Source: Streptomyces tsukubensis (GTDB lineage Bacteria > Actinomycetota > Actinomycetes > Streptomycetales > Streptomycetaceae). From it: DNA of 64,000 bases. The stretch spans positions 3,308,501 through 3,372,500 of the forward strand of contig NZ_CP020700.1 of assembly GCF_003932715.1 (NCBI RefSeq), written 5' to 3'. The notes beneath the pieces are model-generated. The model worked only from the letters and a program-made list of their open reading frames with translations, had not been told where the DNA came from and did no database searches. The first letter of the stretch is position 1. The number at the start of each line of letters is the position of its first letter. Both the position numbers and the translations under genes were made by a program. Below, piece by piece: positions 1,209-20,063 of this stretch.

Positions 1209-1225
1209 TCTGACGATCCGTCAGT
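1209..1225. promoter_or_regulatory. Palindromic operator, copy A (flavin reductase)
   Basis: TCTGACGATCCGTCAGT is an interrupted palindrome 13 bases before the ATG at 1238. The same motif recurs at 15581, 19958 and 20047, each time just upstream of a gene for acyl-CoA or redox metabolism. That suggests one TetR-type repressor controlling all four units. The regulator's identity is inference. Confidence 0.6.
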
Positions 1226-1237
1226 TTGAATGGAGAG

Positions 1238-1861
1238 ATGATGGGACACGCGGGCATGGCCGCCGCCGCCGTCCGGTATCTGCGATCCGTGGGAGCGGCG
1301 CCCACGAACCAGCCGCCCGAGGCATCGGAGCCGTACGACCCACACCCCCGCGCCGAGCTGCGTGCCGTAGGGGAGGACGAACGCGTGCCCGTCGAGAGCG
1401 GGGAGTTCCGGCGGGTCATGGGGCGGTTCGCCAGCGGGGTGACCGTGATCACGGCGCGGGACGCAAAGGGGCCCGCCGGGTTCGCCTGCCAGTCGTTCTC
1501 GTCGCTGTCGCTGGACCCGCCGCTGGTGGTGTTCATGGTCGCGCGGACCTCGACGACCTGGCCCAGGATCGCCCGCGCCGGGGTCTTCTGCGTCAATGTG
1601 CTGGGCGAGGGGCAGGGGGAGCTGTGCCGGGGCTTCGCCGTGCGTGGGGGCGACAAGTTCGCCGGGGTGGCGCACCGGCCCGCGCCGGTCGGCGGGGCGC
1701 CGCTGCTGGAGGGGGCGACCGCCTGGGTCGACTGCGCGGTGCACGCCGTGCACACGGGTGGCGACCATCTGATCGTCGTCGGCCGGGTCCGGGCGCTGGG
1801 CGCGGACGGCGACGGGGATCCGCTGATCTTCCACGAGGGACAGTTCCGGCGTCTGGAATGA
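1238..1861 (+). CDS. Flavin reductase family protein (HsaB/HpaC type)
   Basis: A 207-residue protein whose residues from about 50 on match the flavin reductase-like FMN-binding split-barrel family: FRRVMGRFASGVTVITARD, then GFACQSFSSLSLDPPLVVFMV, then FCVNVLGEGQ, and a C-terminal IFHEGQFRRLE. Such proteins reduce FMN or FAD with NAD(P)H and hand it to a partner monooxygenase. No monooxygenase gene is adjacent. The start is uncertain: ATG at 1238 (or 1241) follows GGAGAG with almost no spacing, while a GTG at 1385 has a better-spaced GGAGG and would give a 158-residue protein close to the core domain. The shared palindrome at 1209-1225 ties it to the catabolic cluster at 12-21 kb. Confidence 0.85.
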   Translation: MMGHAGMAAAAVRYLRSVGAAPTNQPPEASEPYDPHPRAELRAVGEDERVPVESGEFRRVMGRFASGVTVITARDAKGPAGFACQSFSSLSLDPPLVVFMVARTSTTWPRIARAGVFCVNVLGEGQGELCRGFAVRGGDKFAGVAHRPAPVGGAPLLEGATAWVDCAVHAVHTGGDHLIVVGRVRALGADGDGDPLIFHEGQFRRLE

Positions 1862-1930
1862 CCAGGACACGGCCCGGGTCCGGGGGAAATCCGGATGCCC
1901 GGCGGGCCGCGGGCCGGTTACCGTCGAAGG

Positions 1931-2449
1931 ATGGAACCGCTCACCGACCAACAGATCCGTGGCTCCTTCGTGAACTGCACGAAGGGCGAGGCCAAGCGGC
2001 TCCGGCTCCCCACGGACTTCGGCGAGACCCCCTGGGGGGATCTCGACTTCCTGGGGTGGATCGACCCGGGCGCGCCCCAGCGGGCGTATCTCGTGGCCCC
2101 CGGCCCGGACGGCACCCCGATCGGGCTGAGCCTGCGCGTCCCGGCGACGACCAACAGCAGCGCGTTCAAGTCGAGCATCTGCAATATCTGTCTGACCGGG
2201 CACGCGTCGTCGGGTGTGACCCTGCTGGTGGCCCCGCTGGCGGGCCCCCGGGGCCGCGAGGGGAGCACGGTCGGGATCTACTTCTGCGCCGACCTCGCGT
2301 GCTCCCTCTACATCCGGGGCAAGCGTCAGCCGAAGCTCCGCACCCGGCAGCACGAGGAGAGCCTGACCCCGGACGAGAAGGCGGCCAGACTGCTGGACAA
2401 CCTCCGCGCCTTCACGGAGAAGGTCACCGCGGACATCGCGGTCGGCTGA
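1931..2449 (+). CDS. FBP-domain protein (FusB-like treble-clef zinc finger)
   Basis: A 172-residue protein resembling the elongation-factor-G-binding (FusB/FBP C-terminal) family. Its zinc-finger cysteines are visible as CNIC near residue 80 and CADLAC near residue 117, separated by a beta-rich linker, and the C-terminus is helical (LTPDEKAARLLDNLRAFTEKV). In staphylococci FusB binds EF-G and frees stalled ribosomes. Whether this actinobacterial form does so is unknown. The start is the ATG of MEPLTDQQIRG. In-frame codons upstream lack a convincing ribosome binding site. It follows the flavin reductase by 69 bases on the same strand and could be co-transcribed. Confidence 0.8.
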   Translation: MEPLTDQQIRGSFVNCTKGEAKRLRLPTDFGETPWGDLDFLGWIDPGAPQRAYLVAPGPDGTPIGLSLRVPATTNSSAFKSSICNICLTGHASSGVTLLVAPLAGPRGREGSTVGIYFCADLACSLYIRGKRQPKLRTRQHEESLTPDEKAARLLDNLRAFTEKVTADIAVG

Positions 2450-2486
2450 CGCGCGGACGACCGCGGGGTCCGTCCCGGAGGAAGAC

Positions 2487-2879
2487 CTATTCGGGGATGT
2501 ACGCCACCGCGTCGATCTCCACGAGCGCGCCCGGGCGGGCGTGCCCCGAGGTGGAGACGACCGTGACGGCCGTGCGGTGGTCTCCCCACACCGATCGCGA
2601 CGCCTCGTATCCCACCCGTGCGTCGATCCCGTCGACGAGGTAGATGTTGAGTTTGGCGACGTGCTCGGGACCGGTGCCCGCGGCCGCAAGCACGGTCAGC
2701 ACGTTCCGCATGGCCTGAGCGGACTGCGCCTCGATGCCGTCGAGCAGGTTTCCGGCGCTGTCGGTGCCGAGCTGGCCGCCGACATGCACCGTCCGGCCCG
2801 CGGGGATGATCACCCCCTGGGTGAAGGCGGGGTTGCTGGGCAGCTCTTCGGGGTCGAGGTGTGTCGTCTTCGCGGTCAT
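2487..2879 (-). CDS. RidA family (YjgF/YER057c/UK114) protein
   Basis: A 130-residue protein of normal RidA length. It shows the family pattern FTQGVIIPAGRTVHVGGQLG, then QSAQAMRNVLTVLAAAG, then KLNIYLVDGID, and the C-terminal HRTAVTVV followed by LVEIDAVAYIPE. The Arg in HRTAV aligns with the substrate-carboxylate-binding Arg of imine deaminases, so 2-aminoacrylate/imine deamination in the cytoplasm is plausible. The ATG at 2879 follows a GGGTGGGG sequence. The gene is convergent with the FBP-domain gene and transcribed away from the next small gene's 3' end. Confidence 0.85.
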   Translation of the reverse strand: MTAKTTHLDPEELPSNPAFTQGVIIPAGRTVHVGGQLGTDSAGNLLDGIEAQSAQAMRNVLTVLAAAGTGPEHVAKLNIYLVDGIDARVGYEASRSVWGDHRTAVTVVSTSGHARPGALVEIDAVAYIPE

Positions 2880-2948
2880 GGCCCCACCCTGACACCCGTT
2901 GCGGTCAGGTCCGGTCCGCAACTCCCGCGGCCACGGGCCGTACCGCGC

Positions 2949-3347
2949 TCAGGCGACGAGTGCCGCGTGCGCCGCGTCGAACGTCTCCCACAGCTCCCCC
3001 GCGGGCACCGGGCCGAGCTCCAGCTGTACGCAGCACGCCTCGTCGTGCCCGTTAGGCGTCAGGCGGACGAAGAACGCGTACCCGTCGTCGACGCGCTCGG
3101 CCTTCAGCGTCAGCGGATTGTTGCGGGCGGGGGTCACCGCCGCGGAGAACCGGCCGCTCAAGGGGTCGCCGACACGGGACCGCATCCGCTCGGTGAAGTC
3201 CACGGCCTCCTCGACGCCGATGAAGGCGGTGAAGTCGGCCGTCAGGCTGGAGCACCAGTCGGCGGTGATCCGCCAGTGCTCCTCGTCGGTCCGCTCCAGC
3301 TCCAGCCATGCGTCGTCGCCGCCGATCCGTATCCGCACCTGCTCCAT
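2949..3347 (-). CDS. Small hypothetical protein
   Basis: A 132-residue soluble protein starting at the ATG of MEQVRIRIGGDDAWLELER. It looks alpha/beta, with conserved-looking aromatic and acidic patches (DWCSSLTADFTAFIGVEEAVDFTERM; GYAFFVRLTPNG; ACCVQLELGPVPAGELWETF). The pattern of beta strands followed by a final helix resembles uncharacterised streptomycete families of 130-150 residues, but I cannot name one with confidence. There is no signal peptide, membrane segment or catalytic motif. It lies 69 bases upstream of ridA on the same strand and may be co-transcribed with it. Confidence 0.65.
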   Translation of the reverse strand: MEQVRIRIGGDDAWLELERTDEEHWRITADWCSSLTADFTAFIGVEEAVDFTERMRSRVGDPLSGRFSAAVTPARNNPLTLKAERVDDGYAFFVRLTPNGHDEACCVQLELGPVPAGELWETFDAAHAALVA

Positions 3348-3390
3348 CGCCGTCCTCCGCCGTCTTCCGCCGTCCGTGTCCGGGCCGGCA

Positions 3391-3430
3391 ACTCTATGAG
3401 ACGGCACCCCTGTCTATGAGACGGCACCCC
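3391..3430. repeat. 20-bp tandem repeat
   Basis: Two adjacent 20-base units sharing TCTATGAGACGGCACCCC (18 of 20 bases identical) lie between the hypothetical gene start at 3347 and the 3' end of the MFS gene at 3438. It looks like a simple local duplication. Confidence 0.8.
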
Positions 3431-3437
3431 GGCCCAG

Positions 3438-4751
3438 TCAAGGCGCCGCGGCCTTCACCGGAGTCCGGCGGATCACCAGCGCCATCAGTGCCGCGGCCGC
3501 GCACAGCGCGCCCGAGGCGTACCAGACGACGTCGTACGAGCCGAAGGCGTCCCGCGCCACCCCGCCCGCGAAGGCGACGACGGCCGCGCCCACCTGGTGG
3601 GAGGCGAGGACCCAGCCGAAGACGATTGCGCTGTCGTCGCCGTAGTACTGGCGGCAGAGGGCGATCGTCGGCGGGACGGTGGCCACCCAGTCCAGTCCGT
3701 AGAAGACGATGAAGAAGATCATCGGCGGCCGGATATCGGGCGCGAGCAGCATCGGCAGGAACATCAGACTGATGCCTCGCAGCGCGTAGTAGACGGCGAG
3801 CAGCCTACGGGTCTCGTAGCGGTCGGTCAGCCAGCCGGAGCAGACCGCACCGATGATGTCGAAGACGCCGACCAGCGCGAGCAGGGACGCGGCAGCCGTG
3901 ACCGCCATGCCGTGGTCGTGGGCGGCCGGGATGAAATGGGTCTTCATCAGGCCGTTGGTGGTGGCGCCGCAGATCGCGAAGGTGCCGACGAGCAGCCAGA
4001 AGGGTCCGGTACGGGCCGCGTCGAACAGCACCGTCACCGCTCGCCGGGCGGCGCCCTTCGCGGGTGGCGGCTTGGGGGTGAACTCCTCCGCGCCGTAAGC
4101 GGCGAGTCCGGCGTCGGCCGGATGGTCGCGCAGGAGCAGCCAGACAAAAGGGACGACGGCGAGGGCGGCGAGGGCGACGGTGATCGCGGCGGGCCGCCAG
4201 CCGCGCTCCTCCACCAGCCAGGAGAGGAGGGGGAGGAAGACGAGTTGGCCGGAGGCGCCCGCGGCGGTGAGGAGGCCGGTGACCAGTCCGCGGCGGCGGA
4301 CGAACCAGCGGTCGGTGACGGTGGCGGCGAAGGCGAGGGCCATCGAGCCGGAGCCGAGGCCGACGAGGACGCCCCAGAAGAGGACGAGTTGCCAGGCCTC
4401 GGTCATGACGACGGTCAGGGCCGAGCCGAGGGAGATCACGGTCAGGGCGGCGGCGACGACCCGCCGGATGCCGAAGCGGTCCATGAGGGCGGCGGCGAAG
4501 GGCGCGGTCAGCCCGTAGAGCGCGAGGTTGACCGAGACGGCGAAGCCGACCGTGCCGCGGGACCAGCCGAACTCGTCGTGCAGCGGGTCGAAGAACAGGC
4601 CGGGCAGGGAGGCGAAGCCCGCCGCGCCGATGATCGTCACAAAGGTGACGGCGGCGACGAACCAGGCGCGGTGCACGCGGCGCCGGGGGCCGGGCGCGGG
4701 AGGCACGGCCGAAGGCAGGGCCGGGGCGGGTCTACGGGTCAGATCGGTCAC
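3438..4751 (-). CDS. MFS transporter (monocarboxylate/oxalate-antiporter-like)
   Basis: A 437-residue protein with 12 predicted membrane segments starting from WFVAAVTFVTIIGAAGFASLPGLFF. The pattern DEFGWSRGTVGFAVSVNLALYGLTAPFAAALMDRFGIRRV is the usual transmembrane 1-2 loop of the MCT/OxlT-like branch of the major facilitator superfamily. A basic cytoplasmic loop (ARRAVTVLFDAARTGPF) splits the two halves. It probably carries a small organic acid or drug across the cytoplasmic membrane, but the substrate cannot be read. The start is the GTG of VTDLTRRPAP. It is divergent from the GlxA-type regulator with only 72 bases between starts, so that regulator is the likely controller. Confidence 0.85.
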   Translation of the reverse strand: MTDLTRRPAPALPSAVPPAPGPRRRVHRAWFVAAVTFVTIIGAAGFASLPGLFFDPLHDEFGWSRGTVGFAVSVNLALYGLTAPFAAALMDRFGIRRVVAAALTVISLGSALTVVMTEAWQLVLFWGVLVGLGSGSMALAFAATVTDRWFVRRRGLVTGLLTAAGASGQLVFLPLLSWLVEERGWRPAAITVALAALAVVPFVWLLLRDHPADAGLAAYGAEEFTPKPPPAKGAARRAVTVLFDAARTGPFWLLVGTFAICGATTNGLMKTHFIPAAHDHGMAVTAAASLLALVGVFDIIGAVCSGWLTDRYETRRLLAVYYALRGISLMFLPMLLAPDIRPPMIFFIVFYGLDWVATVPPTIALCRQYYGDDSAIVFGWVLASHQVGAAVVAFAGGVARDAFGSYDVVWYASGALCAAAALMALVIRRTPVKAAAP

Positions 4752-4823
4752 GGACCACAGTCTTCGGCCGGTCCGGTTTCCCCATCGAGTGGCCCGAGGG
4801 ACATGGTTCGCTAGGATCGGGCC

Positions 4824-5813
4824 ATGTCTGCTGACCGGAGCCGTACGCCGCATCGTGTGGCGGTCCTCGCCCTGCCGGACGTCATCCCGTTCGAACTGGG
4901 CATCCCGCACCGGATCTTCGGCCGCACCCTCGACGCCTCGGGCGAGAAGCTGTACACGGTCGTGACCTGCACTCCCGTCCCCGGACCTGTCCCGGCCGAC
5001 GCGGACTTCACCCTCCAGGTGGAGCGGGGCCCGGAGGAGCTGGAGCGCGCGGACACGGTGATCGTCCCGGCCGCGTACCACCCCGCGGAGGTCTATGAGC
5101 ACGGCAGACTCCCGGACCAGCTGGCTGAGGTCTTCGCCCGGATCCGGCCGGGCACCCGGGTCGCGTCCATCTGCACGGGCAGCTACTTCCTGGCCGCCGC
5201 GGGACTCCTCGACGGCCGTCCCGCGACGACGCACTGGTGGTGGACGGACCACTTCCAGCGGCTGTTCCCGACGGTACGGGTCGACCGGGACGTGCTGTAC
5301 GTGGACGACGGCTCCGTCCTGACCTCGGCGGGGGTCGCGGCGGGCCTGGACCTCTGTCTCCATATGGTCCGCCGGGACCACGGCACGGCCGTCGCCAACG
5401 ACACCGCGCGCCGCAATGTGGTCCCGCCGCACCGCGCGGGCGGCCAGGCGCAGTACGTGACCCGCCCGGTCCCCGACTCGACGGCCCCGACGACCGCGGC
5501 GGCCCGCACCTGGGCCCTGAGCCGCCTCCACGAACCGCTCCAACTCCGCGATCTCGCCGAACGCGAGTCGATGAGCGTCCGCACCTTCACCCGCCGCTTC
5601 CGCGACGAGGTCGGCGTCAGCCCGGTCCAGTGGCTGACCGCCCAGCGGGTGGAGCGGGCCCGCCAGCTGCTGGAGTCGACGGAGCTCTCGATGGACCAGG
5701 TGGCACGGGACTCGGGCTTCGCCACGGCGCAGTCGATGCGTGCGCATGTCCAGACGGTGCTGGGCGTCTCCCCGACGGCGTACCGCAGAACCTTCCGCGG
5801 CCGGACCCCCTGA
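4824..5813 (+). CDS. GlxA family transcriptional regulator (DJ-1/PfpI + AraC HTH)
   Basis: A 329-residue protein. Residues 10-190 form a DJ-1/PfpI amidotransferase-like domain with a cysteine elbow (SICTGSYFLAAAGLLDGR, Cys117) followed by TTHW. Residues 228-325 are an AraC-type DNA-binding domain with two helix-turn-helices (LRDLAERESMSVRTFTRRFR and MDQVARDSGFATAQSMRAHV). GlxA-type proteins are cytoplasmic regulators, and the sensory domain is usually not enzymatic. It is divergently paired with the MFS gene at 3438-4751, which it probably controls. The ATG at 4824 is the first of the frame. It lacks a strong ribosome binding site, so the mRNA may be leaderless or nearly so. Confidence 0.9.
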   Translation: MSADRSRTPHRVAVLALPDVIPFELGIPHRIFGRTLDASGEKLYTVVTCTPVPGPVPADADFTLQVERGPEELERADTVIVPAAYHPAEVYEHGRLPDQLAEVFARIRPGTRVASICTGSYFLAAAGLLDGRPATTHWWWTDHFQRLFPTVRVDRDVLYVDDGSVLTSAGVAAGLDLCLHMVRRDHGTAVANDTARRNVVPPHRAGGQAQYVTRPVPDSTAPTTAAARTWALSRLHEPLQLRDLAERESMSVRTFTRRFRDEVGVSPVQWLTAQRVERARQLLESTELSMDQVARDSGFATAQSMRAHVQTVLGVSPTAYRRTFRGRTP

Positions 5814-6279
5814 CGACCGTCCGGGCGCTGCCCGGCCGCCTGGGGCGGCGGTCCCTTCACCGGACGCCGGGTCTCCCGGGGGGCGGTTCTTCTGGAGCGC
5901 GCGGGTCACCCCTGCGAGGCGCTGTTCCGCAAGGAGCACCCGGCGGGCGTCGCCTCAGCAGGTCGGAGGCTGTACGGGGGTCCGAGGGTCGGCTGATTCC
6001 CCGGCTCGGAGCGCGATGGCCGGCGGCCTGGGGCTTTACTGTCGCCCGGACCGGATCAGGCGCCGCGTACCCGTCGCGTGCCCGATGGGTTCGGCCGCTC
6101 TTCCCGCCCGCCCGGGCACGCGGCGTCACCGGTCGGCCCTCGGGCCTCAAGCAGAAACAGACCGCCGACGCAGGGCACCCGGGTGTACCGGCCGGACAGG
6201 GAGGCGGTGGAGCCGTGACCCGTCGCAGGGAGCCGATCGAATCGGCTCCTGGCCATGCAGGCGGCGAGCGTGACGGCCC
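5814..6279. other. Intergenic, 466 bases
   Basis: Space between the GlxA and LysR genes, which converge here. I find no credible gene. The frames open here lack ribosome binding sites and have biased, low-information translations. The only structure seen is the dyad at 6229-6249. Confidence 0.6.
6229..6249. terminator. Stem-loop downstream of the LysR gene
   Basis: GGAGCCGAT, three bases, then ATCGGCTCC: a perfect 9-bp stem 31 bases beyond the LysR stop. It probably ends the LysR transcript. There is no T-run, as is common in streptomycetes. Confidence 0.5.
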
Positions 6280-7170: not shown

Positions 7171-7221
7171 GCGCCTCCACGCCTCACCTGTTCGTAAACC
7201 CCCGAATTAACCAACGTTGCA

Positions 7222-7238
7222 TGATCGACCATTGATCG
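7222..7238. promoter_or_regulatory. Probable LysR box between divergent genes
   Basis: TGATCG is repeated at 7222 and 7233. The overlapping dyad ATCGA-CCA-TTGAT fits the T-N11-A pattern of LysR sites. It lies midway between the LysR start (7170) and the VOC start (7267). Confidence 0.45.
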
Positions 7239-7266
7239 TCGCCTTGTCCATACAGATGCTTAGTGC

Positions 7267-7668
7267 ATGAACGTCGTCGCTACCAAGGTGTCGCTGACCG
7301 TGGAGGACATCGGCGCTTCCAGCCGGTTCTTCACCACTCATCTGGGCTTTCGTGAAGTCGAGTCGGGGAACGGCTATGTCTGCCTCCGCCGGGACGACAC
7401 CTCCGTAGAGATCGCCCTGTCCGAACGCGACCCCGAGCTGCCGCCGCGCCCCAGGAAGGGTCAGGGACTGGCCGATCTCGTCGTCACCCTGACCGTCACG
7501 GATGTCGTGGCCGAGCACGCACGGCTGCGCCGCGAGGGGGCCGCCGTCAGCGGCCGGATCCACCACGAGCCATGGGGTGAGCAACTGTTCCGGCTCGTCG
7601 ATCCGAACGGTGTCGTGGTCCAGCTCACCGAATGGGTGCCGCCGGCCGGAGCCCCCGAGCACAGGTAA
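7267..7668 (+). CDS. VOC family (glyoxalase/bleomycin-resistance fold) protein
   Basis: A 133-residue single-domain vicinal-oxygen-chelate protein with the paired beta-alpha-beta modules: KVSLTVEDIGASSRFFTTHLGFREV, then VCLRRDDTSVEIALS, then DLVVTLTVTDVVAEHARLRREG, and the closing FRLVDPNGVVVQLTEW. Members act as glyoxalases, dioxygenases or antibiotic-binding proteins, and the substrate cannot be deduced. The metal positions are only partly recognisable, with Glu in the last strand replaced by QLTEW. It is divergent from the LysR gene and probably under its control. Confidence 0.85.
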   Translation: MNVVATKVSLTVEDIGASSRFFTTHLGFREVESGNGYVCLRRDDTSVEIALSERDPELPPRPRKGQGLADLVVTLTVTDVVAEHARLRREGAAVSGRIHHEPWGEQLFRLVDPNGVVVQLTEWVPPAGAPEHR

Positions 7669-12377: not shown

Positions 12378-13433
12378 TCAGAACGTCAGCACCACCCTCG
12401 CACCCCGCCCCTTCCCCTCCCCCATGGCCTCCGCCGCCCTCGCGAAATCCTCCACCGGGTGGGTTTCCGAGACCAGTTCGTCGAGGAGCAACTCGCCCCT
12501 CGCGTACAGGTCCGCGTAGAGCGCGATGTCGTGCTGCGGGCGCGAGGTGCCGTAGCGGCAGCCCAGGATGGATTTGTCCAGGAACATCCCGGCCGGGGCG
12601 AACGTCGCCTCCGCCGACGGGGGTGTCATGCCCAGCAGGATCGCCTGGCCGCCGCGGTCGAGGAGGTCGATCGCCGTGCGGATCAGGGGCGGGCGGCCCA
12701 CGCATTCGAAGACGTGGTCCGCGCCCGTCGGGAGGACGTCGCGGACGGCTTCGGCGGACGGCAGGAAGTGGGTCGCGCCGAAGCGCAGCGCCAGGGGTTC
12801 CTTCGCCGGGTCGGTTTCGATCGCGACGATCCGGGAGGCGCCCGCCAGGCGGGCGCCCTGGAGGACGTTGAGGCCGATTCCGCCGGTGCCGATGACGACG
12901 ACCGTGTCCCCGCGGCGCGTCCTCGCCCGGTTCAGTACGGCTCCGACTCCCGTCAGCACCGCGCAGCCCAGGACGGCCGCCGAGGTCAACGGGAGGTTCC
13001 GGGGGATCCGTACCGCCTGGACGGCCGTGACGATCGTGCGCTCCGCGAACGCCGAGTTCGCGGCGAACTGGTACAGCCGCTCGCCCCGGCGCGAGAAGGG
13101 CCGGCCCGGGCGGCCGATCGCCGTCCGGCAGAGGGTGGGGCGGCCGCGGTCGCAGTCCGCGCAGGTGCCGCAGTTGCGGAGGGTGGAGAGCGCCACATGG
13201 TCCCCGGGGGCCACATGCCGCACCCCTTCCCCGACCGCCTCCACCACGCCCGCGCCCTCGTGGCCGAGGACCACCGGCACCGGGAAGGGGATCGTGCCGT
13301 CGATCACCGACAGATCGCTGTGGCAGAGTCCGGCCGCGGCGATCGCCACCAGGACTTCGCCGGGGCCCGGGTCCCGGACCTCCAGATCGTCCACCGGCTC
13401 CGGCCGCCTGCCGTCGAAGACGACTCCCCGCAT
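12378..13433 (-). CDS. Zinc-dependent alcohol dehydrogenase (MDR superfamily)
   Basis: A 351-residue medium-chain dehydrogenase. Catalytic zinc ligands are Cys37 (GLCHSD), His58-Glu59 (GHEGAG) and Cys157 (LGCAVLTG). The structural zinc loop has Cys88, 91, 94 and 102 (CGTCADCDRGRPTLC). The NAD(P)-binding Gly motif is GTGGIG at 182-187, followed by VAIETDPAKE, whose acidic residue points to NAD. It resembles class III-like/aryl alcohol dehydrogenases used on bulky primary alcohols. It is the last gene of a leftward operon after an acyl-CoA dehydrogenase (7-base gap) and an SDR, so it probably acts on an alcohol intermediate of the same catabolic route. Confidence 0.92.
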   Translation of the reverse strand: MRGVVFDGRRPEPVDDLEVRDPGPGEVLVAIAAAGLCHSDLSVIDGTIPFPVPVVLGHEGAGVVEAVGEGVRHVAPGDHVALSTLRNCGTCADCDRGRPTLCRTAIGRPGRPFSRRGERLYQFAANSAFAERTIVTAVQAVRIPRNLPLTSAAVLGCAVLTGVGAVLNRARTRRGDTVVVIGTGGIGLNVLQGARLAGASRIVAIETDPAKEPLALRFGATHFLPSAEAVRDVLPTGADHVFECVGRPPLIRTAIDLLDRGGQAILLGMTPPSAEATFAPAGMFLDKSILGCRYGTSRPQHDIALYADLYARGELLLDELVSETHPVEDFARAAEAMGEGKGRGARVVLTF

Positions 13434-13440: not shown

Positions 13441-14634
13441 TCACCCCTTCGGTTCCTTCGGGAGGCCGAGCACCCGCTCGGCGATGACCGTGCGCTGGAT
13501 CTCGTCCGAGCCGCCGTAGATCGTGTCGGCCCGGCTGAACAGGAACATCCGCTGGTCGGGGGAGAGTTCGTACGGCGCGTCCGCGCGCCACTCCCCCGGT
13601 CCGGCCGTCGCCGCCGCGCCCCGTACGGCCATCGCCAGCTCGCCCAGGGTGCGGTGCCAGTTGCCCCAGAGGAGTTTCGTCACGCTCGGCGCCCCGGGAT
13701 CACCTCCCGGCTCCGGGTCCGCGAGGGCGTTCCAGCGCAGGGCCCGCAGCCCCGCCCACTGCCGGACGAGCCGTTCCCGGATGACGGGGTCGTCCGCCGC
13801 GCCCGTCGCCACGGCGGTACGGACGACCTCCCGCAGCTCCGCCTCGAAACCGATCTGCTGGGCGAGGACGGCCGCTCCGCGCTCGTCGGCGAGGAGGGCC
13901 ATCGCGACGGCCCAGCCGTTGCCTTCACCGCCGACGACCTGCCCGGCGCCGACCGCCGCCCCGTCGAAGAACACCTCGTTGAACTCGCTGGTGCCCGTCA
14001 GCTGCCGGATCGGCCGTACCTCGATACGGCCCGGCTGGTCCATCGGCACCAGCAGCAGCGACAGCCCCCGGTGCCGCCGGGAACCCGGCTCGGTGCGGGC
14101 GAGGACGAAGCACCAGTCGGCCTCCCGGGCCAGCGATGTCCACACCTTCTGGCCGGTGACCCGGTAACCGGCGCCGTCCCGCACCGCGCTGGTACGGACG
14201 GCGGCGAGGTCCGAGCCCGCGCCGGGTTCGCTGTAGCCCTGGCACCACAGCTCCTCGCCCCGGGCGACCGGCGGCAGGAACCGGTCCTGCTGCTCCCGCG
14301 TCCCGTACCGGATCACCGTCGGCGCCAGCAGGTTCTCCCCGATGTGCCCGACCCGGCCGGGCGCCCCGGCCCGCGCGTACTCCTCCGCCCACACCACCTG
14401 AAGGTCCCGCCCGACGGACCGGTTGCCCCAGCGCGCCTCGGGCCAGCCCAGGCCGATCCACCCGCCGCACCCCAGCGCGCGCTCCCACTCCCGGCGTACC
14501 GCGACGCCCTCGTGCTCCCGCCCGGGGCCGCCGCCCGCGCTCCGGTGCGCGGCGGTGAGATGCCCGGCCAGCCAGGCCCGCACCTCCGCCCGGAAGCCCA
14601 CATCGTCGGAGCAGGCCACAGCTGCCTCACCCAT
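13441..14634 (-). CDS. Acyl-CoA dehydrogenase (FadE family)
   Basis: A 397-residue flavoprotein of normal length. The N-terminal helical domain (residues 10-120) contains GWIGLGWPEARWG. The beta domain begins with WCQGYSEPGAGSDLAAVRTSA and VTGQKVWTS, the FAD/substrate-binding signature. The C-terminal helical domain ends in YGGSDEIQRTVIAERVLGLP. The family introduces a 2,3 double bond in an acyl-CoA and passes electrons to ETF. Its closest look is to the steroid- and side-chain-type enzymes that often work as mixed tetramers. It lies in an operon between the SDR (20 bases upstream) and the alcohol dehydrogenase (7 bases downstream). Confidence 0.92.
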   Translation of the reverse strand: MGEAAVACSDDVGFRAEVRAWLAGHLTAAHRSAGGGPGREHEGVAVRREWERALGCGGWIGLGWPEARWGNRSVGRDLQVVWAEEYARAGAPGRVGHIGENLLAPTVIRYGTREQQDRFLPPVARGEELWCQGYSEPGAGSDLAAVRTSAVRDGAGYRVTGQKVWTSLAREADWCFVLARTEPGSRRHRGLSLLLVPMDQPGRIEVRPIRQLTGTSEFNEVFFDGAAVGAGQVVGGEGNGWAVAMALLADERGAAVLAQQIGFEAELREVVRTAVATGAADDPVIRERLVRQWAGLRALRWNALADPEPGGDPGAPSVTKLLWGNWHRTLGELAMAVRGAAATAGPGEWRADAPYELSPDQRMFLFSRADTIYGGSDEIQRTVIAERVLGLPKEPKG

Positions 14635-14653
14635 GGTGTACGCCTCCCCCGGC

Positions 14654-15559
14654 TCAGGTGTTGGGGCGTTCGCCGGCCTTCGCCGCCCGCGTCATCTCCG
14701 TGAGCGCGGCCAGCATCGGCATCGGATCGGTGCCGACCGTGCCGGGCAGGAAACCGGCGATCTTCTCCGGCGTCCAGCCGCCCTCCGCGTACCCGGCGCG
14801 CAGCTCACGCGGCTGCGCCCAGACCGCGATCTTGGGTCCGGCGATCGTGTAGACCTGTCCGGTGATCTCCCGGGCCCGGTCGGAGAGCAGATAGACCACC
14901 AGGGCGGCGACGTCCTCGGGTTCCCCGATCTCCGTCAGCTCCATCGGCACCCCTGCGGACATCCGGGTCCGGGCGACCGGCGCGACGGCGTTCGCGGTGA
15001 CGCCGTACCGGTGCAGTCCGAGCGCGGCACTGCGGACCAGCGAGATGATCCCGCCCTTCGCCGCCGCGTAGTTGGCCTGGGACACCGAGCCCTGGTGGTT
15101 TCCGCTGGTGAAGCCGATCAGGGTGCCCGAACCCTGTTTCCGCAGGACGGCGGAGGCGGCGCGGAAGACGGTGAAGGTGCCCTTGAGGTGGGTGGCGACG
15201 ACGGGGTCCCACTCCTCCTCCGTCATATTGAAGAGCATGCGTTCGCGGAGGATTCCGGCGACGCAGACGGCGCCGTCGATCCGCCCGTACGCGGCGAGCG
15301 CGGTGTCCACGAGCCGCTGTCCGCCCGCCATGGTGGAGATGTCGTCCGCGACGGCGACCGCGCTGCCGCCCGCCGCTTCGATCTCCTTCACCACGGCGTC
15401 CGCGATCTCGGAGGCGGGTTCGGCCCCGTCGACGGACACGCCGTAGTCGTTGACGACGACTTTCGCGCCTTCGGCCGCCGCGGTGAGGGCGACCGCCCGG
15501 CCGATGCCCCGGCCCGCGCCCGTGACGGCGACGACCTTGCCTGCCAAGAAGTTCCCCAC
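14654..15559 (-). CDS. SDR oxidoreductase, (3R)-hydroxyacyl-CoA dehydrogenase-like
   Basis: A 301-residue short-chain dehydrogenase. The cofactor motif TGAGRGIG is at 13-20. The insert VVVNDYGVSVDGAEPASEIADAVV is the pattern of HSD17B4/MFE-2-type hydroxyacyl-CoA dehydrogenases. The catalytic Ser152, Tyr164 and Lys168 are in GFTSGNHQGSVSQANYAAAK. After the usual GQVYTIAGP there is a C-terminal tail of about 65 residues (AGYAEGGWTPEKIAGFLPGT) that also fits this subgroup. It probably oxidises a beta-hydroxyacyl-CoA with NAD. It is the first gene of the leftward operon; its ATG is 22 bases from the shared palindrome at 15581. Confidence 0.9.
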   Translation of the reverse strand: MGNFLAGKVVAVTGAGRGIGRAVALTAAAEGAKVVVNDYGVSVDGAEPASEIADAVVKEIEAAGGSAVAVADDISTMAGGQRLVDTALAAYGRIDGAVCVAGILRERMLFNMTEEEWDPVVATHLKGTFTVFRAASAVLRKQGSGTLIGFTSGNHQGSVSQANYAAAKGGIISLVRSAALGLHRYGVTANAVAPVARTRMSAGVPMELTEIGEPEDVAALVVYLLSDRAREITGQVYTIAGPKIAVWAQPRELRAGYAEGGWTPEKIAGFLPGTVGTDPMPMLAALTEMTRAAKAGERPNT

Positions 15560-15580
15560 GCCCGGCCCCTTCCCACAGTT

Positions 15581-15597
15581 TCTGACGGACCGTTAGA
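15581..15597. promoter_or_regulatory. Palindromic operator, copy B (SDR operon / cyclase gene)
   Basis: TCTGACGGACCGTTAGA: arms TCTGACGG and CCGTTAGA with one mismatch. It sits in the 132-base divergent space between the SDR operon and the cyclase gene and could control both. Confidence 0.65.
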
Positions 15598-15691
15598 TTC
15601 TAGGCCGGTCCGGACGCCCGGCACAGCCCCCGTACCGCAACCGCGAGCCGGGGCTCCGGACCGCCGGACGCCTTGAGGAGGTCGGTGCGCG

Positions 15692-16618
15692 ATGCCGCTG
15701 CCGCGCGAGTTCCACGAGATCGCCGAACGCGTGAACAACTGGGGCCGCTGGGGGGACGGCGACGAGATCGGCACCCTCAACCTGGTGACCGATGCGGTGG
15801 TACGGGCCGCGGCGGGCACCGTCCGCTCCGGCCGGCGCGTCGCGCTCGCGCTCCCGCTGCACCGGGACGGGCTCCAGACCGGGCTGGTCCCCGGCCGGAC
15901 CAACCCCTGCCACACCATGCTGCAGATCAACTACGAGATGTTCGGCCCGGGTACGGTCGCCACCAGCGACGACACCGTGACCATGGCGCTCCAGGCGGCC
16001 ACCCACTGGGACGCGCTCACCCATGTCTCCCACAGCGGCACGCTCTACAACGGCCGTCCGGCGAGCACGATCACCCCGCACGACGGATCGCGGTTCAGCG
16101 GGATCGACAAGATCCCGTACGTGGTCTCGCGCGGGGTGCTGCTGGACGTGGCCCGCGCCAAGGGCGTCGAACGGCTCGGCGCCACCCACGCGGTCACGCC
16201 CGAGGACCTCGACGAGGCCGCGGAGTTCGGCGGGGTGACCGTCGGCGCGGGTGATGTGGTGCTCGTACGGACCGGCCAGATGCGCCTGCTGCTGGCCGGG
16301 GACAAACACGCCTACGGGTTCCCGTCGCCCGGGCTCTCCGTCCGTACGCCGGAGTGGTTCCACGCCCGGGACGTGGCCGCCGTGGCGACGGACACGCTCC
16401 CCTTCGAGATCGTCCCGCCGGAGATCGACGATCTATGGCTGCCGGTGCACGCGCTCCATCTGGTCGAGATGGGCCTGCTCCAGGGCCAGAACTGGGATCT
16501 GGAAAAGTTGTCCACAGCCTGTGGAGAAGAACGCCGGTACACGTTCCTGCTCTCGGCCATGCCGGAACCGTTCGTCGGCGCCACGGGCACACCGGTCGCT
16601 CCGGTCGCGGTCTTCTGA
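15692..16618 (+). CDS. Cyclase family protein (kynurenine formamidase-like hydrolase)
   Basis: A 308-residue protein of the cyclase/KynB-like family (PF04199). It starts MPLPREFHEIAERVNNWGRW with GDGDEIGTLNLVT, a hallmark of the longer bacterial subgroup. The metal-binding signature is HWDALTHVSH in place of the shorter HxGTHxDxP form. Later segments DVVLVRTGQM, PFEIVPPEIDDLWLPVHALH and LVEMGLLQGQNWDLEKLS complete the fold. Members hydrolyse amides, lactones or cyclic esters, and the substrate here is unknown. It is divergent from the SDR operon across palindrome B, which suggests a role in the same pathway. Codons 273-279 overlap a pair of DnaA-box-like sequences. Confidence 0.87.
   Translation: MPLPREFHEIAERVNNWGRWGDGDEIGTLNLVTDAVVRAAAGTVRSGRRVALALPLHRDGLQTGLVPGRTNPCHTMLQINYEMFGPGTVATSDDTVTMALQAATHWDALTHVSHSGTLYNGRPASTITPHDGSRFSGIDKIPYVVSRGVLLDVARAKGVERLGATHAVTPEDLDEAAEFGGVTVGAGDVVLVRTGQMRLLLAGDKHAYGFPSPGLSVRTPEWFHARDVAAVATDTLPFEIVPPEIDDLWLPVHALHLVEMGLLQGQNWDLEKLSTACGEERRYTFLLSAMPEPFVGATGTPVAPVAVF
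16508..16528. other. Inverted pair of DnaA-box-like sequences inside a gene
   Basis: TTGTCCACA (16508-16516), three bases, then TGTGGAGAA (16520-16528, reverse TTCTCCACA). Both match the streptomycete DnaA box TTGTCCACA with none or one change. They lie within the cyclase gene, so this may be chance or a DnaA-binding site. Confidence 0.35.
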
Positions 16619-16661
16619 ACCGCCGAATCGGGTCTGGTGGGCTGCCGGATCGCGGCGCCCC

Positions 16662-17345
16662 TCAGCGGCGGACTGCTGCCAGTTCGACGGGTGTACCAGT
16701 ACGGGCGGCTCCGCCGCGCGCACCGTCCCGCGCCCCTCCGGCGCCGGTGCCCGGCTCCCGTACCGCCACCGTCCCCGGCTGGCGGACGGCGACCGTGCCC
16801 GGGTTCCGTACGACCACGGTGCCCGTACCGCGGGCCGCCTCCCGAGCCCCCGCCGTCGCGCTCTCGCGCGCGGTGCCGCCGAGCGGGCCGGAGTACGTGC
16901 CGCGGGCGCCGCGCGTGTCGTCCGGATACGGCGCCCCGACGGGCACACCCCGGTCGATCTCGCACCAGATCGCCTTGCCGTTGCCCTCCTGGGACCAGCC
17001 CCAGCGGTCGGCCAGACCGTCGACGAGTTCCAGACCGCGGCCGTTGGTCTCGTCGTCCTCCGCGGTACGCCGCCGGGGCGGCCGGGCACAGCGGTCAGCG
17101 ACTTCGACCCGGACCGTGCCCGCCTCCTCCTTGCCGAAGCCGAAGAGCATCCGCAGCACGGCGGGGCAGCCCGTGTGGACGACCGCGTTGGTCACCAGCT
17201 CCGAGATCAGCAGGATCAGCGTGTCCGCCAGCGGCTCGTCGTGCTCTATCCCGGAGCCGACGAGCCGGGACCGCGCCCATCTACGGGCCCGCCCCACCTC
17301 CGCGGGATCGGGACCGACCTCCAACTGAACCTGGAGCACCTGCAC
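16662..17345 (-). CDS. ATP-binding (RsbW-like anti-sigma kinase domain) protein
   Basis: A 227-residue protein whose residues 1-130 form a single HATPase_c domain of the RsbW/SpoIIAB-like type very common in streptomycetes: ADTLILLISELVTNAVVHTG (N box), VEVADRC (G1 box), and NGRGLELVDGLADRWGW (G2 box), then GKAIWCEI. The C-terminal 95 residues are unusual, being low in complexity with a repeated GTVAVRxPGT module (three to four copies). No sigma factor or anti-anti-sigma gene is adjacent. The role is probably a regulatory kinase or sigma-binding protein in the cytoplasm. It starts at ATG 17345. Confidence 0.85.
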   Translation of the reverse strand: MQVLQVQLEVGPDPAEVGRARRWARSRLVGSGIEHDEPLADTLILLISELVTNAVVHTGCPAVLRMLFGFGKEEAGTVRVEVADRCARPPRRRTAEDDETNGRGLELVDGLADRWGWSQEGNGKAIWCEIDRGVPVGAPYPDDTRGARGTYSGPLGGTARESATAGAREAARGTGTVVVRNPGTVAVRQPGTVAVREPGTGAGGARDGARGGAARTGTPVELAAVRR

Positions 17346-17745
17346 CGCTCACACCATCCGAACCGGCGGACACAACGCCTCGCGCCTCGACTGGGTCTTT
17401 CCCGGCAGGGTCACTGCCTGTGACTCCCGTGCGGGACAGCATGGTTGACGTACAGTCACCGCAACAAGCGCTTCGGGCATATTCCAGCACGAAGGAGTAC
17501 TCGGGGTGAGTGCTGTGCGACACCTGCCGCGGCGAGTCGAACAGGGGCTCGCGGCCCGCTCACCCGTGGTGTGAGCGGCGCGCATTTCCGGGCACGGGGA
17601 CACCGCAGGGGCGTCACCGCGGCCGTCGTGCCTCGGTACGACTCGCATTTCAGGGAGCGTACCGGAGTGAGCGGCCGACGACGGCCCGTGACGAGTCATC
17701 CGAAGGACACAACCCGATATCGACGCAACGTGACACGCGATGGTG
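17346..17745. other. Intergenic, 400 bases
   Basis: Promoter region of the ATP-binding protein gene and 3' flank of the acyl-CoA dehydrogenase gene. A GTG at 17506 behind GAAGGAG opens a 22-residue frame (VSAVRHLPRRVEQGLAARSP...) that stops at 17574. It has a good ribosome binding site but no other support. I see no other gene, repeat or terminator. Confidence 0.5.
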
Positions 17746-18786
17746 CTATAGCGACGGGCGCGGCGCGGGGGGCCCGGCGGATGCGGCCAGGGCGCGGGCC
17801 GCGGCCTCCTCCGCCTCGGCGGCGACGGGCCGGGTGCGGGCCCGCAGCCAGGCGCGTTTGAGGTGGAGATGGATGTCCGCCTCCCAGGTGAAGCCCATAC
17901 CGCCGTGGATCTGGACGCAGTCGCGGGCGTTGGCGACGGCCGCGTCGTCGGAGATGAGTTTGGCCCCGGCGGTCTCGGCCGGGTCGCCGGAGAGGGCCGC
18001 GGCGTAGACGGCGGCCCGGGCGAGTTCGGTACGGACCAGCATGTCCGCGCAGAGGTGTTTCACCGCTTGGAAGGATCCCACCGGACGGCCGAACTGCTCA
18101 CGCTCCCGGGCGTACCGGACGGCCAGCTCGGTGACGCGGCCCGCCGTGCCGAGCTGCTCGGCGGCGGTGAGGAGGGCGGCCGAAGGGTCCCAGGGGCCGG
18201 GGTCGGCCGGTGCCGGGACGCGGTGCAGGGGGGTGAGCGGATCGACGGACCGCAGGGGTACGGCTCCGGGGAGCCCGGGGCCGGGGGGCAGGGCGACCGG
18301 CGGTACGGCTCCGAAGGCCCCGGCGCCCGGGGATTCTGCGCCCGGGGGCCCGACTCCGGAAGGCCCAGCTCCGGAAGGCCCGGCCCCGCCCCCCGTCCCG
18401 TACCCCTCCACCACGTCCGCCTCCGCCAGCCAGGCCACCAGCCCGCCGTCCGCCCGCGTCACCACCGTCTCCCCCGTCGCCGCGCCCGCGACCCGGCCCG
18501 CCGCCAGATGGGTGGCGGCCAGCGGCCCGGGGACGAGCGCCCGCCCCAGCTCCTCGAAGACGAGTACGGCCTCCGGCGCCCCGAGACCGACGCCCCCGGC
18601 GTCCTCCGGCAGCCGCAGCGCGAACACCCCGGCCTCCGCGAGCGCGGCCCACACCACCCGGTCGAGCCGCGGGGGCCCCGCGCCGTCGGCCATGGCCCGC
18701 AGGGCCTTCGGCGGGCAGACGCGTTCGAGGAGTCCGCGGGTGGCGGACTGCAGCGCCCGCTGGTCTTCGGTGAGCCTGAACCGCAT
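17746..18786 (-). CDS. Acyl-CoA dehydrogenase, probable partner subunit
   Basis: A 346-residue acyl-CoA dehydrogenase-like protein, shorter than a normal 380-400. It starts MRFRLTEDQRALQSATRGLL and has EAGVFALRLPEDAGGVGLG and VLVFEELGRALVPGPLAATH. It lacks the S-E-P-x-G-S-D FAD signature of the middle domain. Instead residues of about 130-170 are a Gly/Pro/Ala/Ser-rich low-complexity insert (repeated AGPSG/GPPGA). The C-terminal domain is intact (REREQFGRPVGSFQAVKHLC; ARDCVQIHGGMGFTWEADIH), and this half carries ETF/FAD contacts. It starts 1 base after the stop of the adjacent full-length enzyme, which suggests the mixed tetramers known for steroid side-chain FadE pairs. Confidence 0.85.
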   Translation of the reverse strand: MRFRLTEDQRALQSATRGLLERVCPPKALRAMADGAGPPRLDRVVWAALAEAGVFALRLPEDAGGVGLGAPEAVLVFEELGRALVPGPLAATHLAAGRVAGAATGETVVTRADGGLVAWLAEADVVEGYGTGGGAGPSGAGPSGVGPPGAESPGAGAFGAVPPVALPPGPGLPGAVPLRSVDPLTPLHRVPAPADPGPWDPSAALLTAAEQLGTAGRVTELAVRYAREREQFGRPVGSFQAVKHLCADMLVRTELARAAVYAAALSGDPAETAGAKLISDDAAVANARDCVQIHGGMGFTWEADIHLHLKRAWLRARTRPVAAEAEEAAARALAASAGPPAPRPSL

Positions 18787-18787
18787 C

Positions 18788-19924
18788 TCAGGCACCGCCT
18801 TTCGGCAGGCCGAGCAGCCGCTCGGCGATGATGTTCCGCTGAATCTGGGAGGTCCCGGCGGCGATCGTGTACGAGAGGGACGACAGCCGGTCGACCGCCC
18901 ACTCCCGCCCGAGGTCGAGCGCGTCGGGCCCGAGGACCTCGGCGGCGGTCTCGTACAGCTCCTGCCGGGCCCCCGAGTAGCGGAGTTTGAAGACGGAGCC
19001 GCCCGGGCCGGGGACCGTGCCGCCGGTCCTGGCCTCGCTGACGTTCCACTGGACCAGCCGCCACAGCGCGGTGAACTCGGCGTGCAGCCTGCCCAGCCTG
19101 CGCCGGAGGACCGGATCGTCCCAGCGGCCGGTCTCCCGGGCCGCGGCGGCGAGAGCGGCGAGGGTACGGCGGCAGGCGACGACCTCCCCGGCGAAGGCGG
19201 TACCGCGTTCGAAGGAGAGGGTGACCATGGTGACCCGCCAGCCGTCGTTCTCGGCGCCGACCCGGTGGGCGGCCGGGACCCGTACCTCGTCCAGGAAGAC
19301 CTCCGCGAACTCGGCCGTTCCCGCCAGCGTGCGCAGCGGCCGGACGGTGATCCCGGGCGCGTCCATGGACAGCGCCAGCCAGCTGATCCCGCGGTGCCGG
19401 GGGGCGGCGGGGTCGGTGCGGACGAGGAGTTCGCACCAGTCGGCGACCTCGGCGTGCGAGGTCCAGATCTTGGAACCGGTGACGACGTACGCGTCGCCGT
19501 CGCGGACGGCCCGGGTGCGCAGGGCGGCGAGATCGGATCCGGCGCCGGGTTCGCTGAAGCCCTGGCACCAGATCTCGTCGCCGCGCAGGATCGGGCCGAG
19601 CCACCGTTCGCGCTGTTCGGGCGTGCCCTCGGCGGCGATGGTGGGCCCGGCGTGGAGGAGGCCGACGAAGTTGGCGCCGACGTAGGGCGCGCCGGCGAGT
19701 TCGGTCTCCTCCAGGAAGACCAGCCGGAGGCCGGGATCCGCGTCCCAGTGGAGCCGGCCGTACCCGGCGTCGTACAGCATGCGCTGCCAGTGGGTGTCGT
19801 ACGCGCGGCGGCCGGGCCAGTCGTCCGGTGAGGGCTTCGGGGGGAGCCGGGGCAGGGCGGTGGCCAGCCAGCTCCGCAGTTCCGTGCGGAACGCCGCTTC
19901 CTCTTCCGTCGGGCCGAAGTCCAT
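18788..19924 (-). CDS. Acyl-CoA dehydrogenase, full-length subunit
   Basis: A 378-residue protein: N-terminal helical domain (MDFGPTEEEAAFRTELRSWL, GYGRLHWDADPGLRLVFLEE), the FAD/substrate signature WCQGFSEPGAGSDLAALRTR with VTGSKIWTS, and the C-terminal signature AAGTSQIQRNIIAERLLGLP. It is closest in look to the enzyme at 13441 and to FadE subunits that act on branched or ring-bearing acyl-CoAs. It is the first gene of a two-gene leftward operon with the shorter subunit. The shared palindrome C lies 34 bases upstream of its ATG. Confidence 0.92.
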   Translation of the reverse strand: MDFGPTEEEAAFRTELRSWLATALPRLPPKPSPDDWPGRRAYDTHWQRMLYDAGYGRLHWDADPGLRLVFLEETELAGAPYVGANFVGLLHAGPTIAAEGTPEQRERWLGPILRGDEIWCQGFSEPGAGSDLAALRTRAVRDGDAYVVTGSKIWTSHAEVADWCELLVRTDPAAPRHRGISWLALSMDAPGITVRPLRTLAGTAEFAEVFLDEVRVPAAHRVGAENDGWRVTMVTLSFERGTAFAGEVVACRRTLAALAAAARETGRWDDPVLRRRLGRLHAEFTALWRLVQWNVSEARTGGTVPGPGGSVFKLRYSGARQELYETAAEVLGPDALDLGREWAVDRLSSLSYTIAAGTSQIQRNIIAERLLGLPKGGA

Positions 19925-19957
19925 GGAGCCCGGTCACCCCGCCTTCGCCGTACCGAA

Positions 19958-19974
19958 TCTGACACTCCATCAGA
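19958..19974. promoter_or_regulatory. Palindromic operator, copy C (acyl-CoA dehydrogenase pair)
   Basis: TCTGACACTCCATCAGA keeps the outer arms TCTGA/TCAGA of the palindrome. It is the most diverged of the four copies and lies in the divergent promoter region with copy D. Confidence 0.55.
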
Positions 19975-20046
19975 TATGTATCGGCCCCAGGCTAGCCCCG
20001 CCCCCGACCGCCCACAAGCAGCCCCGCACCTACCCCCGCAACCGTA

Positions 20047-20063
20047 TCTGACGTACCGTCAGT
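20047..20063. promoter_or_regulatory. Palindromic operator, copy D (acyl-CoA ligase)
   Basis: TCTGACGTACCGTCAGT, arms CTGACG and CGTCAG, 36 bases upstream of the ligase ATG. It matches copies A and B closely. Confidence 0.65.

Follow-up and report, generated by a model that had tools for sequence, protein, structure and literature searches.

The locus raises the question of whether four similar palindromes before genes of acyl-CoA metabolism in Streptomyces tsukubensis mark one regulon, which regulator would bind them and what the genes would degrade. The window, the whole stretch of DNA analyzed, comprises 64,000 nt of contig NZ_CP020700.1 (positions 3,308,501-3,372,500). Judged from sequence, the palindromes have the appearance of genuine operators. 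The Streptomyces gene network to which they would belong is large and conserved and resembles the machinery by which other actinobacteria trim sterol side chains. In the reading that we favor, with a probability of about 0.78, they serve a TetR-family repressor that controls a regulon of sterol-type side-chain catabolism, and the likeliest such repressor is the PF19352-type TetR described below.

Four operator-like sites in the window

The four TCTGACG-N3-CGTCAGA-type sites reported in the sequence-only reading were recovered at the same positions, with 1, 1, 2 and 1 mismatches in coordinate order. The sites and their neighboring genes, the latter with start codons as called by the codon-usage script of the analysis, are as follows.

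1209..1225, + strand: operator 1, TCTGACGATCCGTCAGT, 1 mismatch, precedes the flavin reductase gene
1241..1861, + strand: flavin reductase, best NCBIfam match HsaB at 194.7 bits, below the cut-off of 230
12378..13394, - strand: zinc alcohol dehydrogenase, third in the putative SDR operon
13441..14634, - strand: acyl-CoA dehydrogenase, second in the putative SDR operon
14654..15559, - strand: SDR oxidoreductase, first in the putative operon
15581..15597, + strand: operator 2, TCTGACGGACCGTTAGA, 1 mismatch, common to the SDR operon and the divergent cyclase gene
15692..16618, + strand: putative cyclase (PF04199), divergent from the SDR operon
17746..18786, - strand: acyl-CoA dehydrogenase subunit, IpdE2-like (155 bits, cut-off 450)
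18788..19924, - strand: acyl-CoA dehydrogenase subunit, best PDB sequence matches 4x28 (E 1e-48) and Tcur3483 6wy9
19958..19974, + strand: operator 3, TCTGACACTCCATCAGA, 2 mismatches, precedes the acyl-CoA dehydrogenase pair, first of a conserved site pair
20047..20063, + strand: operator 4, TCTGACGTACCGTCAGT, 1 mismatch, precedes the acyl-CoA ligase gene, second of the conserved site pair
20099..21637, + strand: AMP-forming acyl-CoA ligase

Allowing 1 mismatch, the window held 3 sites against 0.017 expected, and allowing 2 mismatches 4 sites against 0.35; counts of 3 and 4, respectively, were reached in 0 of 300 dinucleotide shuffles each. With 3 mismatches there was no excess (4 sites, chance mean 4.36). 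A distance of 13-36 bases from site to start codon had been proposed throughout and holds for the flavin reductase (15 bases, ATG 1241), SDR (21, GTG 15559), acyl-CoA dehydrogenase (33, ATG 19924) and ligase (35, ATG 20099) genes, and fails for the divergent cyclase at 94 bases. Across 49 oriented site-gene pairs, selected because a start codon lay 10-60 bases from the middle of the site, the consensus was a 17-bp palindrome with A/T flanks. Annotation of the window SDR as mycofactocin-coupled was rejected (142 bits, cut-off 300).

Distribution of the motif in the genome and the genus

The relaxed core CTGAYGNNNCRTCAG occurred 22 times genome-wide compared to 0 for a reversed-pattern control, and 20 of these strict sites fell outside called genes, which argues against the random placement that a genome-wide scan was proposed to detect. 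With up to 2 mismatches, the motif gave 65 sites and the reversed-pattern control 17, so that chance may account for a considerable share of the weaker matches; 50 of the 65 lie within the examined stretches, which were themselves picked around such sites. An extent of 19 kb, as originally described, is an understatement, since the sites spread over megabases. The dispersed set also fronts genes for CYP125, FadA5 thiolase and a ChsH2/lipid-transfer-protein operon, and apparently unrelated genes lie downstream of several of the 22 strict sites. In 121 same-genus genomes, our own included, the motif gave 2793 forward matches versus 85 for the control.

Site conservation was followed in 21 same-genus stretches (20 and that of genome G023). 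In 7 of the 21 we recovered orthologues of the flavin reductase, SDR and cyclase, which were not found in the other 14. Wherever the flavin reductase orthologue was found (7/7) a site preceded it, a conservation that adds to the motif, earlier named as the one link of this gene to the others. The SDR and cyclase orthologues likewise had a site in 7/7, two counts that are not independent because one site is common to both. The off-consensus base of operator 2 was kept in 7/7 other genomes. Close ligase orthologues (72-81% identity; 13 matches in all) carried a site in 7/7, and in 7/7 other genomes a site pair 78-90 bases apart stood before the ligase orthologue; six ligase paralogues (30-32% identity) were without a site, as were all 23 control genes (0/23). 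For the acyl-CoA dehydrogenase pair, an adjacent site was found in 0/7 close orthologues (9 matches in same-genus stretches).

At independent loci, 50 of 84 site-adjacent genes resembled site-adjacent genes of our genome, compared to 57 of 554 other genes, a comparison resting on 120 loci among at least 120 matches listed. Where G+C was 0.60 or higher, 41 of 104 loci had a gene beside the site that is homologous to a site-adjacent gene of our genome; where it was below 0.60, 0 of 16 did. In genomes G134 and G025, 24 of 29 sites had a neighbor homologous to the own genes examined, not all of which are targets, and 5 of 29 had none. There, a site lies directly upstream of homologues of the 13441..14634 dehydrogenase (53% identity in G134, 41% in G025) and also upstream of ligase homologues (48-49%).

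A PF19352-type TetR as candidate regulator

The best candidate is a 204-aa TetR-family protein encoded at genome positions 3287813-3288427, 20.1 kb before the window and between motif sites, although the regulator had been thought not to be encoded near the cluster. It contains a PF00440 HTH (26.3 bits, cut-off 24) and a PF19352 TetR_C_38 domain (238.5 bits). Among the genome's 77 TetR matches it has the most strict sites within 45 kb, namely 5, none of the others having more than 3.

The candidate was present in all 121 of the 121 same-genus genomes sampled; across the phylum, 12 of 149 genomes had it, our own included. The 12 carriers had 1-25 motif copies each, and the 137 non-carriers a mean of 0.77 and a maximum of 5. 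This association (p 6e-9; 3e-6 without the own genus; both values ignore kinship) leaves an overlap, in that 5 of the 12 carriers have only 1-5 sites, no more than the richest non-carriers, and 15 of the 137 non-carriers have at least 3. In L060, L073 and L156, a TetR of the same subfamily is encoded at a distance of 2-5 kb from exact palindromes. The HTH stretch SxATFYQYF was invariant in 44 chosen homologues (42 chosen from at least 240, plus those of L073 and L156), many of them about 35% identical to the first. Genome-wide counts, co-occurrence with one TetR subfamily and site conservation elsewhere support the idea of one regulon under one TetR-type regulator.

A search for a TetR gene with its own motif copy had also been proposed. 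A site with up to 3 mismatches was found upstream in 2 of 22 TetR loci, before the gene itself in G134 and before its putative operon in G025, and in none of the 13 same-genus loci; signs of autoregulation are accordingly rare, a point against the candidate. The best PDB matches of the candidate were 6srn and EthR (E about 1e-5); KstR and KstR2 were absent among the 10 listed. Judged by title and the start of the abstract, the literature matches listed, from outside subscription journals, held no description of the candidate regulator or operator, and those with TCTGACG as text looked unrelated; PF19352 or TetR_C_38 had no mention in the literature searched.

The KstR orthologue and other possible regulators

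KstR was taken as the first candidate because its gene adjoins a perfect palindrome, 2 kb away. The protein (genome 2196150-2196770) is a KstR orthologue by sequence (PDB KstR, E 3e-39), and the candidate TetR, encoded by a separate gene, did not qualify as one. That KstR binds the operator, the sites being those of the known KstR regulon after drift of its motif, would suit the gene content, reminiscent of the mycobacterial KstR regulon, and the co-occurrence of KstR with the motif in most KstR-bearing genomes. The kstR upstream region, however, carries a different, KstR-type box, TAGAACAAGTTTCA, repeated before kstR in G023, G107, G128 and L167. The phylum genomes comprised 11 with KstR and the TetR, 3 with KstR only and 1 with the TetR only, so KstR co-occurs with the motif almost as well as the TetR does, a point against the latter; the KstR-only genomes, however, had 4, 3 and 1 motif copies against 2, 0 and 0 for the controls, and G050, in which KstR is intact and the PF19352 TetR stop-interrupted, had 1. 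KstR was therefore rejected as the owner of the operator, given its different box and the genomes that have it without the other TetR, and we regard this explanation as very improbable. The mycobacterial KstR operator TnnAACnnGTTnnA (PMC1995591) had 22 genome-wide matches versus 2 for the control, 18 of them outside the stretches examined and six reading TAGAAC on one strand; three lie within 14.1 kb at and before kstR, and the window held no exact match. Both box types coexist at one promoter, a further point against KstR as owner, and occur together at two operons of the genome.

A non-TetR activator or repressor, or one of the unscored TetRs, might bind the operator instead, given that scoring reached 150 of 253 TetR candidates and took in that family only, and that the 13 same-genus loci have no site before the candidate gene. 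We judge this improbable in view of the TetR-motif co-occurrence, the linkage in distant genomes, the sites upstream of the candidate in two genomes and the invariant HTH.

The PF19352-type TetR thus preferred can be set beside known regulators. The KstR regulon (Rv3574, MSMEG_6042) likewise has a TetR-family regulator and palindromic operators before many lipid-catabolism genes, but its operator is TnnAACnnGTTnnA (PMC1995591) rather than ATCTGACG-N3-CGTCAGAT, and the KstR orthologue has a C-terminal PF17925 in place of PF19352, both regulators being encoded in the same genome. KstR2, a TetR-family repressor too, governs steroid catabolism from a palindromic operator and differs in the sequence of that operator, AnCAAGnnCTTGnT, with three sites near kstR2 and 15 genes (PMC3068626). 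Mce3R is another TetR-like repressor, with genes implicated in cholesterol metabolism; unlike the candidate, it is described as a double TFR chain with a non-palindromic site (PMC11667970).

Pathway content and substrate

The substrate, earlier called unknown, is provisionally narrowed by the genes accompanying the sites to sterol-type side-chain acyl-CoAs. The targets include CYP125 (E 6e-150), FadA5 thiolase (678.7 bits, equivalog cut-off 515), a lipid-transfer protein (E 6e-163) and ChsH2 DUF35 (E 2e-43), alongside matches resembling 4x28, which we take to be ChsE4-ChsE5. CYP125, FadA5 and ChsH/Ltp2-type genes are members of the mycobacterial KstR regulon. HsaC had no match at E 0.001 and HsaA reached at best 237 bits, below the cut-off of 450, so canonical ring degradation looks incomplete; KshA_C-type Rieske matches were present. 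The regulon also includes luciferase-like monooxygenases, Amidohydro_2 proteins and the cyclase, for which we know of no place in steroid catabolism.

With the same TetR-operator pair, the substrate could instead be an acid of non-steroid type, whether isoprenoid, branched or alicyclic, for which paralogous steroid-like enzymes were recruited. The HsaC and HsaA results fit this explanation, as do the several protein families that, to our knowledge, are foreign to steroid pathways. A steroid pathway was also reported as lacking in 55 of 57 Streptomyces genomes (PMC4810484). Set against it are the CYP125 and FadA5 scores and the in vitro hydroxylation of cholesterol by CYP125A13 of Streptomyces peucetius (PMC9728343), and we hold it to be rather unlikely. 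The latter work concerns a Streptomyces CYP125 too, but as an enzyme study that, in its available part, includes no regulator or operator (PMC9728343).

The sites, their neighboring genes, the conservation and the co-occurrence can be read from the sequences themselves; for the sterol-type regulon under the PF19352-type TetR, we infer the following binding, repression, ligand and substrate. A TetR dimer would bind ATCTGACG-N3-CGTCAGAT, 15-35 bases before start codons in the window, and would keep the genes silent until it is released by an acyl-CoA intermediate. These genes would serve sterol-type (isoprenoid) side-chain catabolism, in which terminal hydroxylation by CYP125 is followed by oxidation and CoA activation. 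Steroid-type acyl-CoA dehydrogenases and FadA5 thiolase would then carry out beta-oxidation, and the ChsH2/lipid-transfer-protein pair the last cleavage. KstR would persist alongside with its own box.

Implications for streptomycetes

It is possible, though we put it forward tentatively, that the genus Streptomyces has conserved a regulon for trimming sterol side chains while lacking canonical ring degradation, a regulon in which an unrelated TetR with its own operator now commands genes that KstR governs in mycobacteria, while KstR keeps its own gene and shares some operons. If true, streptomycetes would shorten eukaryotic sterols as far as the steroid core and not mineralise them. For a TetR present in 121/121 sampled same-genus genomes and some distant actinobacteria, the analysis provides an operator together with a putative regulon and a mechanism open to testing. 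It suggests a regulatory replacement, in which an unrelated repressor has here taken over, in whole or in part, genes that KstR controls in mycobacteria, and it makes testable a neglected question, the role of sterol side-chain enzymes in streptomycetes, which are mostly reported without steroid catabolism.

Predicted operator sites in the window and genome

The four 17-bp palindromes of the TCTGACG-N3-CGTCAGA type were located in the window precisely where the sequence-only reading had placed them. At up to one mismatch, three sites were found compared to 0.017 expected, and at up to two mismatches four compared to 0.35; neither number was reached in any of 300 dinucleotide shuffles. At up to three mismatches, the number of window sites equaled the chance expectation. 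In the whole genome of S. tsukubensis (8.02 Mb, listed as 100% complete, 69 to 75% G+C across the fetched stretches), the 17-mer gave 65 matches at up to two mismatches compared to 17 for the reversed pattern, and the strict motif CTGAYGNNNCRTCAG gave 22 compared to 0. Twenty of the 22 strict sites fell outside the genes called by our own script; 9 of the 50 sites with up to two mismatches within fetched stretches lay inside called genes. An extended operator, ATCTGACG-N3-CGTCAGAT, was obtained from 49 oriented site-gene pairs (flanking A in 71%, T in 69%). Two clusters of sites with up to two mismatches lie at 2.18-2.21 and 3.25-3.33 Mb, and lone sites occur elsewhere, so the originally proposed extent of 19 kb was too small.

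Seven strict copies (1767507, 2353732, 2937971, 3052391, 3567386, 3694738, and 3810359) have neighbors without an evident link to acyl-CoA catabolism, or no called gene nearby, and are either chance matches or unrecognized targets. The strict site at 7864696 lies 52 bp upstream of a nitronate-monooxygenase-like gene (by eye), a 77% identical homolog of which also adjoins an exact site at a locus elsewhere (L103).

A PF19352-type TetR protein as candidate regulator

Genes for TetR proteins were sought with a home-made HMM in 120 loci carrying the exact palindrome (among the matches listed), which contained six: three (L060, L073, and L156) of the subfamily of a TetR protein encoded in the S. 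tsukubensis genome at 3287813-3288427, one KstR-like, and two others. The earlier statement that the regulator is not encoded near the cluster was wrong, this candidate lying 20.1 kb before the window. It matches PF00440 (26.3 bits) and PF19352 (238.5 bits), and its closest relative in the protein database, from Streptomyces qinzhouensis, is 96% identical. Five strict sites lie within 45 kb of it, compared to at most three for any other of 77 TetR matches in the genome, in a ranking that covered 150 of 253 candidates.

Among 149 genomes of the phylum, 12 carry the candidate TetR (E up to 1e-20) and have 1, 2, 3, 4, 5, 6, 14, 14, 19, 22, 23, and 25 motif copies, compared to a mean of 0.77 and a maximum of 5 in the 137 without it, 15 of which have at least three (Mann-Whitney P = 6e-9; 3e-6 without the own genus; kinship not corrected for). 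Within the genus, it was present in 121 of 121 genomes, with 3 to 55 motif matches each and 2793 in total compared to 85 for controls. This co-occurrence of motif and PF19352 TetR genes supports, at the level of sequence, the predicted TetR type of the regulator.

Among 44 chosen homologs, many sharing about 35% identity with the first, the helix-turn-helix stretch SxATFYQYF did not vary, the pattern expected if the operator is constant. A motif site precedes the TetR gene in genome G134, and the TetR gene of G025 overlaps an isochorismatase-like gene that has a perfect site upstream; the remaining 20 of 22 TetR loci, 13 from the same genus among them, had no motif site upstream of TetR. One PF19352 TetR gene (G050:C74:75373-75957) contains one in-frame stop in a genome that has KstR and a single motif copy; this may reflect natural loss of the regulon or faulty assembly.

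Conservation of the sites

Orthologs of the flavin reductase, SDR, and cyclase were found in 7 of 21 same-genus stretches. Sites preceded all seven flavin reductase orthologs, the shared SDR/cyclase start in 7/7 stretches, and all seven close ligase orthologs, compared to 0 of 23 control genes. The off-consensus base of the second window site was retained in 7/7 other stretches, and the paired operators upstream of the ligase recurred in 7/7, spaced by 78 to 90 bases (89 in the window). No adjacent site was found at the seven close orthologs of the window dehydrogenase. In genome G023, an amidohydrolase gene lies between site and dehydrogenase, and the site at the S. tsukubensis ortholog of this amidohydrolase gene (3959380) is identical to that of G023 in all 17 letters.

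In G134 and G025, 24 of 29 sites have a neighbor with a homolog among the fetched S. tsukubensis genes and 5 do not; these homologs include the ligase, dehydrogenases, SDR, DUF35, amidohydrolase, thiolase, AMP-ligase, CoA ligase, isochorismatase, TetR, and an enoyl-CoA hydratase-like protein (just 29%). In the 120 loci elsewhere (among the matches listed), 50 of 84 site-adjacent genes resemble S. tsukubensis site-adjacent genes, compared to 57 of 554 others.

Genes of the predicted regulon

Genes and composite sites of the predicted regulon
CYP125, near a motif site: PDB CYP125 match, E 6e-150
FadA5 steroid thiolase, divergent from CYP125: NCBIfam 678.7 against a cutoff of 515 (passed); PDB FadA5, E 7e-146
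ChsH2-like protein, in a motif-adjoining operon: DUF35 part, E 2e-43
MaoC-type protein, same operon: recognized by eye alone
Lipid-transfer protein, same operon: 6ok1_A (presumably Ltp2), E 6e-163
Fused acyl-CoA dehydrogenase, near motif: FadE34-like architecture, by eye
Window 18788-19924, acyl-CoA dehydrogenase subunit: matches 4x28 (which we take to be ChsE4-ChsE5) and Tcur3483
Genome 2181691-2181793 and 2187869-2187900: mixed KstR-box/new-operator sites

The motif-neighbor genes combined, among them those for CYP125, FadA5, the ChsH2-like and lipid-transfer proteins, and the 4x28-like dehydrogenase, are a predicted tool set for sterol side-chain removal. The partner of the dehydrogenase subunit is IpdE2-like and the window flavin reductase HsaB-like, both scoring below cutoff. 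An anti-sigma-type HATPase_c_2 gene (window 16662-17345) separates the cyclase from the dehydrogenase pair, likewise in G023.

Canonical steroid ring opening looks incomplete, since the best HsaA score (237 bits) was below the cutoff of 450 and HsaC had no match in the genome. Adjacent stretches at 3233463-3235223, roughly 12 kb ahead of the cluster of sites, match KshA_C-type Rieske oxygenases, with no motif at up to three mismatches nearby. One paper reports 55 of 57 Streptomyces genomes to be without a steroid pathway (PMC4810484).

Proposed repression and relation to KstR

Since the window operators lie 15 to 35 bases upstream of start codons (sometimes more than 100 elsewhere), a TetR dimer bound there would occlude the promoter or early elongation. 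The inducer is likely an acyl-CoA from side-chain oxidation, by analogy with the KstR effectors 3-oxo-cholestenoic acid and CoA thioesters (PMC9782250).

A KstR ortholog is also encoded (2196150-2196770), and TAGAACAAGTTTCA upstream of kstR matches the KstR box TnnAACnnGTTnnA (PMC1995591). This pattern has 22 matches genome-wide compared to 2 for the control; the surroundings of 4 of the 22 were examined. Three fall within 14.1 kb: one upstream of kstR, the second at the fused acyl-CoA dehydrogenase, 1 bp from the new operator, and the third about 50 bp from two new operators before a MaoC-like/ADH/SDR operon. Such adjoining boxes suggest, from their arrangement, joint control by two TetR proteins.

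In genomes G023, G107, and G128, KstR boxes recur upstream of kstR and near the MaoC-like/ADH/SDR operon, where the side-by-side arrangement with new operators is repeated; the CYP125-FadA5 pair has the new operator but lacks a KstR box. Locus L138 repeats the paired boxes at the fused dehydrogenase and G107 has the KstR box alone; the gene was not found in the fetched G023 and G128 stretches. KstR occurs in 14 of the 149 phylum genomes, and three genomes with KstR only carry 4, 3, and 1 motif copies. On the basis of this box distribution and these motif counts, the arrangement reads as at least partial regulatory replacement, in which many genes would be under the PF19352 TetR and a few under both regulators.
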